IMG/VR virus record: IMGVR_UViG_3300044998_001406
Location: 1 to 36,239 of that record
Reading direction: 5' to 3' (one strand)
From: a virus
Length of the DNA: 36,239 bases
Part shown: one piece after another, positions 2,756-35,677 of the stretch
Layout: every line of letters starts with the position of its first letter
Position numbering within the stretch: the first letter of the stretch is position 1
The notes under the pieces: model-generated
What the model saw: the letters and a program-made list of their open reading frames with translations, nothing else
What the model was told of the DNA's origin: nothing
The model's database searches: none
Program-made: the position numbers and the translations under genes

Positions 2756-3378
2756 ACACAAGTCGTCGGAAGAGCTGCTTCCAGACCTCGCTGGTAACGA
2801 CTCCAGGCGATGCCGATGGAACCTATGATTAGGGCCAGGACAATTAAGAACCCGGCTCGATAAAGTTGCCGGGCTTTCCAGTGGATGATGTGCCACTGAA
2901 TGAACGTCAGCTTGTGGTAATACTTTGCCAGGTTCGCATGCAGAGAACCTTTAACTGACCATTCCGCCGCTTGCCAGCTTTCCTTGTATTCTGTGAAGAC
3001 TTTCCGACCGTCCAGCAAGCATTGATTCACGTCTTGCACGCTCGGTTGACGTCCCCCTTGTTTCGGAAAAAAGGAAACGAGTGACGTGATTGAGGCCACG
3101 AGCAGTAATGCTCCGACAACAGCCAGCATCCATTCAGGGGCGGCCACGTTTTCGCTGATCAGGAGTCCCAGAAACGTCGCTGCCAGGCCGAAGGCGATTC
3201 CCGCCTTGTTGTCAATTCCGCTGGTCACTTCAACGGTCCGTTCCCAGAAGTTTTCTCCGTAAGCATGCACAAGTTCAGACTCAGCTGTTGGGAGTCGTTC
3301 GAATTCTGGGGGAGTCGGTGCGGGGGGGCACCACACCCAGTCCTTCGGAGAATGTTTCAGCAGGGCTTCGAAAAACAT
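2602..3378 (-). CDS. Membrane protein B, paralog of A
   Basis: A 258-residue paralog of the 1697-2461 product with the same architecture: N-terminal soluble ~50 residues, GIDNKAGIAFGLAATFLG opening a two-helix hairpin (~60-77 and ~84-105), a helical linker with WHIIHWKARQLYRAG, a third helix at ~176-193, then a Gly/Ser/Cys-rich tail. GAAAGG precedes the ATG. Identity to A is moderate, so the duplication is old. The D-x-KA motif at the start of the first helix is shared with A and is typical of Pycsar-TM/SLATT-like membrane effectors as I remember them. Transcribed leftward with A, probably from the 3379-3640 region. The tail beyond residue 208 is overlapped by the 2567 mini-gene and may have little function. 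Confidence 0.66.
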   Translation of the reverse strand: MFFEALLKHSPKDWVWCPPAPTPPEFERLPTAESELVHAYGENFWERTVEVTSGIDNKAGIAFGLAATFLGLLISENVAAPEWMLAVVGALLLVASITSLVSFFPKQGGRQPSVQDVNQCLLDGRKVFTEYKESWQAAEWSVKGSLHANLAKYYHKLTFIQWHIIHWKARQLYRAGFLIVLALIIGSIGIAWSRYQRGLEAALPTTCVQSSFIVPPNPSAENLKGMLPSGAGGSAGGWAGLGCSGGDPTGGFSGCSGC

Positions 3379-3669: not shown

Positions 3670-3911
3670 GTGCCAAAACTAACACCGCATCCTGAGACGT
3701 TATCAGGAAACCAACTCTTTCAAGCCTGCAAGCTCGCAGCCTGATTCCGTTGGTCGCGGTAACCTGTGAGTTATTCGACGACCAAGCCCCAGTGCTAGGG
3801 GGAGGCCGGTAAAATGATCAGCCCCTGCGAGAGTTTCCGCGCGTCCTGGCGACCGCGATAACCGAACCCGATCAGCGCCGTTCCCGTTCCGGCGCTGGTC
3901 GGGTCTTTTCT
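3670..3911 (+). ncRNA. Possible untranslated transcript upstream of int
   Basis: The stretch from 3379 to 4059 has no convincing gene. Between the promoter candidate and the strong terminator lie ~240 bases with small hairpins (for example CCTGA/TCAGG around 3690-3708) and no ORF with a ribosome site. This fits a small RNA or an attenuated leader for int. I do not recognise an RNA family. Confidence 0.22.
3866..3911 (+). terminator. Strong intrinsic terminator upstream of integrase
   Basis: A 15-bp stem (3866-3880 with 3890-3904, one G-U pair) and a 9-base loop are followed by TCTTTTCTT. It would stop rightward transcription before the integrase gene, so int would need its own promoter or readthrough. 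Confidence 0.8.
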
Positions 3912-4059
3912 TACAGGCACTGACCTACGCCGGTTCCGGTCGTCGGATGGCTCGCTGATGGAGCGAACCAAGGATGACACATCATGCAGGACTCCCTGCG
4001 CGACGGAGCGTCCCCGAAGGAGCAGCAGGGAATCCTGCCCAGCGCTGGGGGCAACCACG

Positions 4060-6907: not shown

Positions 6908-7320
6908 CCAGTGTGAAATTTGAGACATGGGCCATCGTGGAGATCATGGGGCATCAGAAGTATGCGGGATTTTGTACCGAGCAGCCGATCGCCGGTTCGG
7001 CGTTCCTGAGAATCGATGTGCCAGCGGTAGCGGGTGAACCAGCCTTCACAAAACTGTTTGGTGGCAGCGCAGTCTTCTCACTAACTCCTGTGACGGAGGA
7101 CGTGGCCCGGGGGGTGGCTGCTGCTGTGCAGAAGGCTCCCGTCAACACCTGGGATCTACCTGCAGAGTGGCAGGAGAAACTCCGCAGCTCCCGCACTTTG
7201 ACGGTGCTACAGTCCAGAGATGACCTAATTGATGAGAGATACTGCAGGGGCTGCAGTATTCAGCTGTCCCCTTCGAACAGCAGCGGTCTGTGTGCTGATT
7301 GCGAATGTGAAGAGGAGTGA
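6904..7320 (+). CDS. Conserved phage protein (ETWAIVEIMGHxxYAG type) with zinc ribbon
   Basis: 138 residues; ATG 6904 overlaps the preceding stop (ATGA). Residues ~5-85 match a widespread phage/prophage hypothetical family I recognise by its pattern: FETWAIVEIMGHQKYAGFCT, IAGSAFLRIDVPAV, FTKLFGG and SAVFSLTPVTEDVAR. Its function is unknown to me. A C-terminal CRGC...CADCECEE forms a probable zinc ribbon, which may bind nucleic acid. Confidence 0.75.
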   Translation: MTSVKFETWAIVEIMGHQKYAGFCTEQPIAGSAFLRIDVPAVAGEPAFTKLFGGSAVFSLTPVTEDVARGVAAAVQKAPVNTWDLPAEWQEKLRSSRTLTVLQSRDDLIDERYCRGCSIQLSPSNSSGLCADCECEEE

Positions 7321-7364
7321 TCGGAGAGGCTCGCTGTGCCAACCCGCTAAACGGAGCTCGTGTC

Positions 7365-7952
7365 ATGGAAAGACAGAAAGCCGAACGGATCGCCGAAGCA
7401 ATCACCCTCGCGCTCTCCGCAGCTTGCGAACGAATTCAGATCGCCGGAAGCCTCCGGCGCGAATGTCCCGAAGTCGGAGACATCGAAATCGTCTGCATCT
7501 CGAAAGAACGGCCGCGAATCCCTCCCGGCGCGTTGTTTCCTGTCGTTTATCGGGCAGCACTGGAAGTCTCTGAACGGCTGCTGGATTCCCCGAACCTCTC
7601 GAAGGGACCCAAGTGGGGTGAGAAGTTTCGGCAGCTCGTCTACCGAGTTGATACGGCCGATCAGATCACAATCGACCTGTTCATTGTCCAGCCTGACTCC
7701 TGGGGCCCGCAGCTCGCGATCCGTACGGGCCCAGCCGGGTTCTCCAGAGTTCTCGTCTCCCGCGGACTTCCAGCGGGTTACCGCATGGAAGGGGGAGCAA
7801 TTCGAAATCAGCACGGAACGCCGATTCCATTTCCCGATGAACGGCAATTTTTCGAATGGTGCGGCCTTCCGTACTGGCCACCGTCTGAACGATCTGAATA
7901 TCGGATCGTGCAGTTTCTCGATTCTCATTTCTTCCACGCTCAAGGTGTCTGA
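7365..7952 (+). CDS. DNA polymerase beta-like nucleotidyltransferase
   Basis: 195 residues. ATG 7365 has GGAGCT upstream; an in-frame GTG at 7317 (GTGA overlap) would add 16 residues and is the alternative. An N-terminal helical segment precedes IAGSLRRECPEVGDIEIVCI, the GS-xRR...D-x-E signature of the X-family/minimal nucleotidyltransferase fold, with the third acidic residue in ITIDLFIV. The C-terminal part (GLPYWPPSERSE) matches the thumb-like end of phage Pol-beta-like proteins. It lacks the HhH and PHP domains of full-length PolX. Probable role: DNA repair or gap filling, or tRNA/DNA end modification, during phage replication. Confidence 0.82.
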   Translation: MERQKAERIAEAITLALSAACERIQIAGSLRRECPEVGDIEIVCISKERPRIPPGALFPVVYRAALEVSERLLDSPNLSKGPKWGEKFRQLVYRVDTADQITIDLFIVQPDSWGPQLAIRTGPAGFSRVLVSRGLPAGYRMEGGAIRNQHGTPIPFPDERQFFEWCGLPYWPPSERSEYRIVQFLDSHFFHAQGV

Positions 7953-8135
7953 ATGCTCGTGCTATCACGCAAACAAGGTGAGTCCCTCCAAATCGGCGAC
8001 CAGATCACGATCACGATCGTGCGCATGTCGGGAAATTCCGTGCGAGTCGCGATCGAAGCGCCACGCGATGTCAACATCGTGCGGACGGAGCTGATCGAAC
8101 GCGACCAGTCCCCGCGTATCGTCGCGGCTTCCTGA
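7953..8135 (+). CDS. csrA: CsrA carbon storage regulator homolog
   Basis: A 60-residue protein of normal CsrA length. It begins MLVLSRKQGESLQIGDQI and keeps the hallmark strands (ITITIVRMSGNSVRVAIEAP) and the RNA-binding Arg44 region (VNIVRTELIERD). CsrA dimers bind GGA motifs in mRNA leaders and repress or activate translation. AAGGTG lies before the ATG, and the gene starts one base after the upstream stop. The next gene is the replication initiator, and the csrA stop codon is the left arm of a hairpin covering that gene's ribosome site. A phage CsrA could act on its own mRNAs or reprogramme host translation. Confidence 0.95.
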   Translation: MLVLSRKQGESLQIGDQITITIVRMSGNSVRVAIEAPRDVNIVRTELIERDQSPRIVAAS

Positions 8136-8176
8136 TCCCATTCACGGCCGATCAATACCAAAGGAATGGGATCATG
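8133..8176 (+). promoter_or_regulatory. Hairpin over initiator ribosome site (possible CsrA target)
   Basis: TGATCCCATTC (8133-8143) and GAATGGGATCA (8164-8174) are perfect 11-bp complements separated by 20 bases. The left arm begins with the csrA stop codon; the right arm includes part of the AAAGGA ribosome site and the first base of the initiator ATG. GGA at 8163-8165, GGGA at 8168-8171 and GGA at 8176-8178 are candidate CsrA contacts. It could also be a protein operator on DNA. Confidence 0.6.
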
Positions 8177-9343
8177 GAAGAACGACAGAAACGGCAGGAG
8201 TCATTCTGGCTACCGGCTGATGATCGCACGCGTCTGATTAATGCTCTGCTCCTTCCTCGATCCGTACTCGTCGACGAAGGCAAGAGAGGGCACACAGTCA
8301 AGAATATGGTTCTGGTGGCTGTACTGCGCCAGCTGAACGACCGGGGGCAAGGCGATGTCTGGTGCATCGCCTCTGCCGCACGCATCGCAGACGAGATCAA
8401 GTGCAGTGAGAAGACAGTCCGGCGGGCGCTTGCGGCGTTGGAGTCTCTCGGCCTGATCGAGTCTGCTCCCGGGCGGCACGCGAACCACTACCGAATCGAC
8501 TGGAGGGCAATCCGAGCCCGCACGAAATACGCCGGTCACCCGGAAGTAGCCTTACTCACTTCCAGTCCCCAGGGTCCGACTGTCTCGGTTTCGTTGTCCC
8601 CAGGGTCCGACTGTCGTCAAAGTCACTCGGACCTTGGGGACAGTCACTCGGACCTTGGGGACAGTCACTCGGACCTTGGGGACGTCACTCGGACCCTAGG
8701 GTCCACCTACCATGGAGTAATGAATGGAATGAATGAAACTCCATGCATGGAGATTCAGAAGGATGCAGGAACGGGGGCGAGCGCGGGGCGAGTCGGCTGG
8801 ACACTCGCACGCGGAACCACATCTGCCGACCTCCGCGACCCAGAACGCCTCCAAGCACTCTGGCTGCGTGCTGTCCAGCTCCGGAAGCTCCCGGATACGG
8901 ACTACTGGCGGGAAGCGTTCTTCGGCCTGGCTCATTCGCTGGTCCGGCGTCCGGAGCAAATCCGCAGTCCCGTGGGCATGCTCCATCGGAAGCTCGACGA
9001 CGGTGAAGCTGCGGTCCTTAAGCAGGTCACCGATCCTGATCGGGACTGGGCTCGTCAGGCAATCCGCAAGCTCGACGGGCTCGACATGCCGCGAGTCGCA
9101 GATCTCTCGCGGTCAACTGGCTCGACGCCGCAGCCTTGTCAACTCAACCTCGACCACCTGGAGCGGGAAGTCGGTCCGGTCTTGGACCGGCTCGACGTCG
9201 GCACACTCGCAGCTCTCGCTGAACGGGCCGGTCCGTTTGTCGCCTACGCGATTCGGCACGGTCGGACTCGCCAGAGTAAAGCACTGCGCGGCCTTTTACT
9301 CTCTCAGCTCGCGAAGGAACAACAGCTTACGGAGTCATCATGA
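8174..9343 (+). CDS. Replication initiator, winged-helix (lambda O-like organisation)
   Basis: 389 residues. The N-terminal third carries a helix-turn-helix/winged-helix domain (IASAARIADEIKCSEKTVRR, then ALAALESLGLIESAPGRHANHYRID), as in phage replication initiators. The middle (~residues 130-185) is low-complexity because the DNA there is an iteron array: HSDLGD is repeated. The C-terminal half is helical and may recruit a helicase or loader. An origin embedded in the initiator gene is the arrangement of lambda gene O. AAAGGA precedes the ATG but is enclosed in a hairpin with the end of csrA. The next gene overlaps by ATGA. No separate helicase or loader gene is recognised. Confidence 0.8.
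   Translation: MEERQKRQESFWLPADDRTRLINALLLPRSVLVDEGKRGHTVKNMVLVAVLRQLNDRGQGDVWCIASAARIADEIKCSEKTVRRALAALESLGLIESAPGRHANHYRIDWRAIRARTKYAGHPEVALLTSSPQGPTVSVSLSPGSDCRQSHSDLGDSHSDLGDSHSDLGDVTRTLGSTYHGVMNGMNETPCMEIQKDAGTGASAGRVGWTLARGTTSADLRDPERLQALWLRAVQLRKLPDTDYWREAFFGLAHSLVRRPEQIRSPVGMLHRKLDDGEAAVLKQVTDPDRDWARQAIRKLDGLDMPRVADLSRSTGSTPQPCQLNLDHLEREVGPVLDRLDVGTLAALAERAGPFVAYAIRHGRTRQSKALRGLLLSQLAKEQQLTESS
8566..8704. repeat. Iteron array, candidate phage replication origin
   Basis: Three exact copies of GTCACTCGGACCTTGGGGAC lie at 8622-8641, 8643-8662 and 8664-8683, a period of 21. A diverged fourth begins at 8684 and ends in the perfect palindrome GGACCCTAGGGTCC (8691-8704). Two inverted, related copies (GTCCCCAGGGTCCGACTGT) lie at 8565-8583 and 8595-8613. 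Directly repeated and inverted sites inside an initiator gene suggest the initiator's own binding sites. Confidence 0.78.
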
Positions 9344-35605: not shown

Positions 35606-35630
35606 CGAGTCAAGCCGGAGTCATTCCTTC

Positions 35631-35677
35631 ACGGACTTTTAATCCGTAGGTCCTGGGTTCGAGTCCCAGCGCCTTCA
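35631..35677 (+). other. tRNA-Lys(UUU) 3' half: candidate attachment site
   Basis: A perfect tRNA 3' moiety: anticodon arm ACGGA-CTTTTAA-TCCGT (35631-35647, anticodon TTT), 5-base variable loop, T arm CTGGG-TTCGAGT-CCCAG (35653-35669), acceptor strand CGCCTTC and discriminator A. The 5' half (GAAGGCG expected) is absent upstream and CCA is not encoded. This is what an integrase crossing over within a tRNA-Lys gene leaves at the distal att site; the host follows. Confidence 0.85.

Follow-up and report, generated by a model that had tools for sequence, protein, structure and literature searches.

Several plasmids restrict their replication by concealing the start of the initiator gene: in R1, IncB, IncL/M and ColIb-P9 the rep start is sequestered, and translation of a short upstream ORF opens it. 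These systems have antisense RNA control and, in several of them, a pseudoknot, neither of which was noticed at the locus described here. The closest known system to the one described here is S004-repA of the integrative island SGI1, where an inverted repeat over the S004 stop codon and the Shine-Dalgarno (SD) sequence and start of repA masks repA, and where translation of S004 in cis was found experimentally to be required (PMC7826253). Coupling through RNA unfolding, with spacing for two ribosomes, is described for E. coli rpmI-rplT and for the coat and lysis genes of phage MS2 (review PMC12548453). In the CsrA family, RsmA has been proposed to open an SD-trapping hairpin in phz2 (PMC3933668), and CsrA acts via translational coupling on evgL-evgA and iraD (PMC11210196). 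The csrA gene also occurs on mobile elements: one survey finds it in about 1.2% of phages and, on plasmid pMBA19a, within the replication region, and terms its role there obscure (PMC7366521).

Here, we analyze the junction between a csrA gene and a replication initiator gene in a viral contig of 36,239 nucleotides (IMG/VR record IMGVR_UViG_3300044998_001406, positions 1 to 36,239; hereafter the window), where, judging from computed folds and a modeled ribosome, a hairpin very probably acts as a gate on initiator translation and links it to csrA. Coupling of an initiator to an upstream ORF by a start-masking hairpin is already known, and it is the phage csrA setting that is unusual; our search of the open-licence literature returned no description of a translational joint between csrA and an initiator in a phage.

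The anatomy is that of SGI1 S004-repA in that an inverted repeat extends across the upstream stop codon and conceals the initiator's SD and start, with a need for translation in cis that we infer here. In SGI1, however, the genes overlap and the upstream one encodes a leader peptide, whereas here a 38-nt gap follows a complete CsrA and the carrier is a phage; the likeness is one of anatomy, and we claim no homology. With the leader-ORF/rep systems of R1, IncB, IncL/M and ColIb-P9 the locus would share a sequestered initiator start opened by upstream translation, and with rpmI-rplT and MS2 coat-lysis an RNA-unfolding type of coupling with room for two ribosomes, although with different genes and structures, the upstream product here being an RNA-binding regulator. 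Its resemblance to phz2, evgL-evgA and iraD lies in the pairing of a CsrA family member with an SD-trapping stem-loop or translational coupling; in those cases binding was probed with gel shifts, footprints or mutants, whereas the predicted closed state here shows no accessible CsrA site. Plasmid pMBA19a likewise carries csrA near replication functions, and the accessible part of the survey of plasmid and phage csrA describes no junction structure or coupling (PMC7366521).

The upstream gene (7953–8135, plus strand) encodes a 60-amino-acid CsrA (Pfam CsrA, E 5e-23; matches to CsrA and RsmE structures in the PDB). Aligned to solved CsrA structures, it retains L4, R6 and R44, which we take to be the known RNA-contact residues of CsrA, and the protein is an ordinary family member that probably binds RNA; because these residues are kept, it could bind GGA sites. 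The downstream gene (8174–9343, plus strand) encodes a 389-amino-acid O-like protein with an N-terminal winged helix (Pfam HTH_36/HTH_11 and PHROG initiator families), its PHROG initiator/O-like matches being confined to the HTH region, and we infer that this gene starts replication. Iteron-like repeats of 20–21 bp within it (8565–8701, plus strand) are the presumed origin. In lambda, the origin is internal to gene O, and the window initiator, which has a winged helix at its N terminus and iterons within its own gene, appears to fit this lambda O-like iteron type. The succession of csrA and an O-like initiator with internal iterons (7953–9343) recalls the cII-O gene order typical of lambdoid phages, with csrA in the position of cII.

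Genes around this pair are packed tightly. The ORF upstream of csrA (7317–7952, plus strand) has a match to the DNA polymerase beta thumb (E 7.7e-7) and no relative that we could find among the viral contigs scanned; its stop abuts the csrA start (TGA-ATG). At the neighboring joints the genes either overlap or abut (GTGA at 7317, TGAATG at 7950, and ATGA at 9340, where the next ORF overlaps the initiator stop), and the csrA-initiator joint is the sole loose one among them. The hairpin sits there.

The csrA stop codon TGA (8133–8135) and the initiator ATG (8174–8176) are 38 nt apart. A sequence-only reading of this DNA had pointed out a perfect 11-bp inverted repeat, TGATCCCATTC at 8133–8143 and GAATGGGATCA at 8164–8174, separated by a 20-nt loop, with the csrA stop in its left arm and the end of the SD and the first base of the ATG in its right arm, and we confirm each of these particulars. 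The stem proves longer than described: when 7953–8400 is folded as RNA, 16 Watson-Crick pairs join 8128–8143 with 8164–8180, pairing probabilities are 0.956–1.0 for the stem pairs sampled, and the single bulge is U8175, the middle base of the initiator AUG. The left arm, CTTCCTGATCCCATTC (8128–8143, with 8133–8143 as its perfect inner part), is made up of the last csrA codons, the stop and 8 nt of spacer. The 20-nt loop (8144–8163) includes AAAG (8160–8163), the first four bases of the initiator SD AAAGGA (8160–8165), which lies 8 nt before the ATG, and the right arm, GAATGGGATCA(U)GGAAG (8164–8180), takes in the last two SD bases (8164–8165), the start codon and the second codon; all of these elements are read on the plus strand. 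In the computed fold, both the SD and the start codon of the initiator are masked by the hairpin. Folding of 8080–8220, the stretch proposed for this purpose in the sequence-only reading, likewise gave a structure more stable than dinucleotide shuffles (z = −3.2).

The predicted burial is deep. Opening the SD-start region of the initiator has a computed cost of 19.2–19.7 kcal/mol, compared with a mean of 9.2 (sd 2.7) kcal/mol over 46 ORF starts of the window, a mechanically called set in which some ORFs are not genes and whose greedy selection omits csrA and the initiator, these two having been computed separately. Spacer shuffles that kept the SD in position gave a cost of 6.7 (sd 2.3) kcal/mol, and none of 1000 matched the observed value. 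Elsewhere in the window, a single start has an opening cost as high as that of the initiator, at 19.5 kcal/mol; it belongs to a doubtful 61-amino-acid ORF on the minus strand (3795–3980), opposite the start region of the ORF at 3984.

An inverted repeat that arose by chance and has no function would sit well with two observations: the window holds two more perfect 11-bp repeats (three with loops of up to 60 nt, against 0.5 expected), and the hairpin is not kept in either of the two relatives, L002 and L013, considered below. We nevertheless regard this reading as very improbable. Of simulated leaders, a fraction of 0.00033 had a perfect 11-bp repeat with its right arm reaching the SD or start, and about 0.015 repeats of this type over an SD or start are expected across the roughly 46 starts of the window, a figure for the inner 11 bp alone that would be lower for 16 bp. 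The shuffling result points the same way, as does the ribosome relief described next, which is the greatest of 95 pairs, and selection would be expected to act against a chance hairpin this strong on an essential start.

In our model the ribosome is a 31-nt block whose bases are kept from pairing, and we moved it along csrA. The initiator start stayed locked, at 17–20 kcal/mol, until the front edge of the modeled ribosome passed about 8130 in the left arm, and as the ribosome neared or reached the csrA stop the opening cost came down to 6.1–6.2 kcal/mol; across folding windows the cost with the ribosome in place was 3.7–6.3 kcal/mol in most and 9.6 kcal/mol in the longest. With the ribosome at the csrA stop its front edge lies at about 8145, well before the SD at 8160, so the ribosome would not cover the start that it has opened. 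The resulting relief, 13.4 kcal/mol, ranked first among 95 codirectional ORF pairs (mean 0.65, sd 2.2; runner-up 7.6 kcal/mol) whose gaps measure 15–70 nt and which have an SD-like motif. The pairs come from the window itself, from phages related to it and from viral contigs that carry csrA; some of them are mechanical ORFs, and the ranking is a yardstick rather than a p-value.

These modeled energies suggest a hairpin that works in cis as a translational-coupling lock and is opened by csrA translation, which we consider the likely explanation. On free mRNA, the 16-bp stem would hide the SD and start codon and hardly any initiator would be translated. A ribosome translating csrA to its stop would cover and unwind the left arm, exposing the start site, on which a second ribosome would load or the first would re-initiate. 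Initiator synthesis would thus track csrA translation on the same mRNA, and the arrangement may serve to set initiator dose and timing inside a tightly linked early operon. Such coupling requires only a ribosome at the csrA stop, and therefore CsrA protein would not be needed as operator. The 38-nt gap, which is above the typical length for efficient coupling, counts against this explanation; a spacing of +52 nt is known for the coupled rpmI-rplT pair (review PMC12548453). The equally costly start of the doubtful 61-amino-acid ORF also speaks against it, as do two findings in the relatives below, the missing hairpin of L013 and the non-significant sequestration in L002.

Searches of viral contigs, genome contigs, and phage and plasmid collections yielded further csrA-initiator pairs only in L002 and L013. 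The viral contigs were queried with the initiator, csrA, the upstream ORF, the terminase, an alignment of the window and L013 initiators, and the L013 and L002 initiators; no close homologue was found in them or in the phage or plasmid collections, and the terminase relatives of the window were mostly short fragments without csrA. L013 is a true relative, with matching terminase, portal, protease-region and several tail-region genes. Its csrA is joined by an ATGA overlap to an initiator 26% identical to that of the window, and its initiator start has no hairpin and an opening cost of 8.5 kcal/mol. In L002, where the first 48 residues of CsrA show 67% identity, csrA precedes, by a 27-nt gap, an initiator with a GTG start. 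That start is moderately structured (15.5 against 11.8 ± 3.1 kcal/mol for shuffled leaders, not significant), and the structure relieved by the ribosome is weaker, the relief at the csrA stop amounting to 3.4 kcal/mol (rank 5 of 95).

Both the window and L002 initiators match PHROG initiation families; the L013 initiator has no PHROG initiation match and was identified as such by its resemblance to the window protein. Mid-gene repeats of about 20–22 bp are present in all three, after the winged helix where one is recognized (window 8565–8701; L002 3573–3691; L013 3252–3391). The repeat units are unrelated in sequence among the three csrA-linked initiators, and the arrays stand mid-gene as in lambda O. 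The conserved feature therefore appears, from gene order and repeats, to be csrA directly before an iteron-bearing initiator and not the hairpin, the joint being built differently in each phage. In all three, csrA is probably coupled to the iteron initiator.

A different kind of explanation gives the stem a role in ribosome termination or mRNA stability, insulating against re-initiation or protecting the mRNA, with its overlap of the initiator start being non-regulatory. Stable structures after stop codons are widespread and are enriched at gaps of at least 25 nt (PMC7518266). Those known structures, however, lie downstream of the stop, whereas the stem described here covers the final codons of csrA along with their stop and reaches precisely to the initiator start site, and as an insulator it would silence the initiator. 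Given also that the csrA-initiator pair is an outlier among the 95 comparable pairs, we judge this account to be decidedly unlikely.

The hairpin region matched no Rfam family; elsewhere in the window Rfam reports a tRNA at 35611–35677 (31.6 bits) where ARAGORN reports none. An intrinsic terminator was considered and rejected, as no T run follows the stem on either strand, and a promoter was rejected as well, there being no promoter-like sequence at the site. The arms could instead act in DNA, as an operator or a cruciform with inverted half-sites 31 bp apart that is bound, for example, by the initiator for autorepression. Inverted half-sites near initiator genes are common in iteron plasmids, and GGGATCA is found also in the L013 iterons. 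The arms are nonetheless unlike the iterons of the window phage (7 of 11 matches, against a random mean of 6.9), further copies do not exceed chance (14 against 11.7 expected), promoter-like and terminator-like sites are absent at the hairpin, and the arm ends coincide with translation signals, all of which leaves a DNA-level element with hardly any likelihood in our estimation.

Which agent would work the lock is where our analysis parts from the sequence-only reading, which had proposed that the phage's own CsrA opens or closes initiator translation. The gating of the initiator and its link to csrA are borne out by the fold and the modeled ribosome relief; CsrA protein as the operator gained no support, since the GGA motifs are buried and L013 has neither a GGA nor a hairpin at its joint. 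The three GGA motifs that it named do occur (8163, 8169 and 8176), but each is at least partly within the stem instead of in an exposed loop, with probabilities of being unpaired in the closed hairpin of 2e-4, 1e-9 and 4e-6, respectively. CsrA prefers GGA in single strands or loops. By computation, the closed hairpin has no accessible GGA (ANGGA) site, and the motifs become accessible solely once it is opened. Because they are buried, CsrA would not readily open the lock, and after opening could only block the SD.

Several observations are still in keeping with a switch in which phage CsrA acts at the GGAs of the SD and start, beside or in place of opening by the ribosome. The phage CsrA is intact, with its RNA-contact residues kept, and two ANGGA motifs lie at −13 and 0, where 0.25 are expected per 80 nt. 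Once the modeled ribosome stands on the csrA stop, freeing GGA 8163 and GGA 8176 costs just 0.5 kcal/mol, and their 13-nt spacing is one that a CsrA dimer might bridge. The precedents of RsmA on phz2 (PMC3933668) and CsrA on evgL-evgA and iraD (PMC11210196) make a CsrA layer conceivable. Against such a switch, GGA 8163 is the SD itself and GGA 8176 is ATG-GAA, so these motifs need no special explanation and their presence is nearly automatic. An exact CsrA consensus site is absent from the window, near matches to it are not enriched (11 against 24.7 expected), and the leader of the phage csrA lacks ANGGA.

The relatives also bear on the question. The sequence-only reading had said that homologues lacking the complementarity or the GGA motifs would refute its switch. 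L013 is such a homologue, its csrA overlapping the initiator with no hairpin and no GGA from −60 to +20; L002 has GGAs at its SD, both phages being distant from that of the window. We consider a CsrA-operated switch unlikely on this evidence. Because L013 is distant, a lineage-specific CsrA layer may lie on top of the coupling. One such arrangement, to which we would give a shade less credence than to the CsrA-operated switch, is a self-limiting pulse of initiator, in which csrA translation opens the start and exposes two GGAs, and accumulating CsrA dimers then repress it.

Beyond the three initiator-linked genes, many viral csrA genes directly precede a gene for DNA replication or nucleotide metabolism, several with overlapping ends. 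The genes that follow encode a processivity factor, SSB, a 5'-3' exonuclease, a Sak4-like ATPase, a PolB-type exonuclease, a dNMP phosphatase and GTP cyclohydrolase; these loci (L008/L009, L041, L042, L045/L046, L003, L015, L043, L016, L011 and L026/L028/L029) were picked by eye and are a lead rather than a count, and the neighbor genes of L009, L028, L029, L042 and L045 were judged by sequence likeness only. In L012, a 436-kb viral contig, csrA is followed (about 3190–3270) by a long, nearly uninterrupted hairpin of terminator-type appearance, the region folding at −54 kcal/mol.

Plasmids and an integrative island are already known to couple an initiator to an upstream ORF through a hairpin gate, and the phage csrA case would extend the scheme to phages. 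If true, the gating of an initiator by csrA suggests one job for phage-borne csrA.
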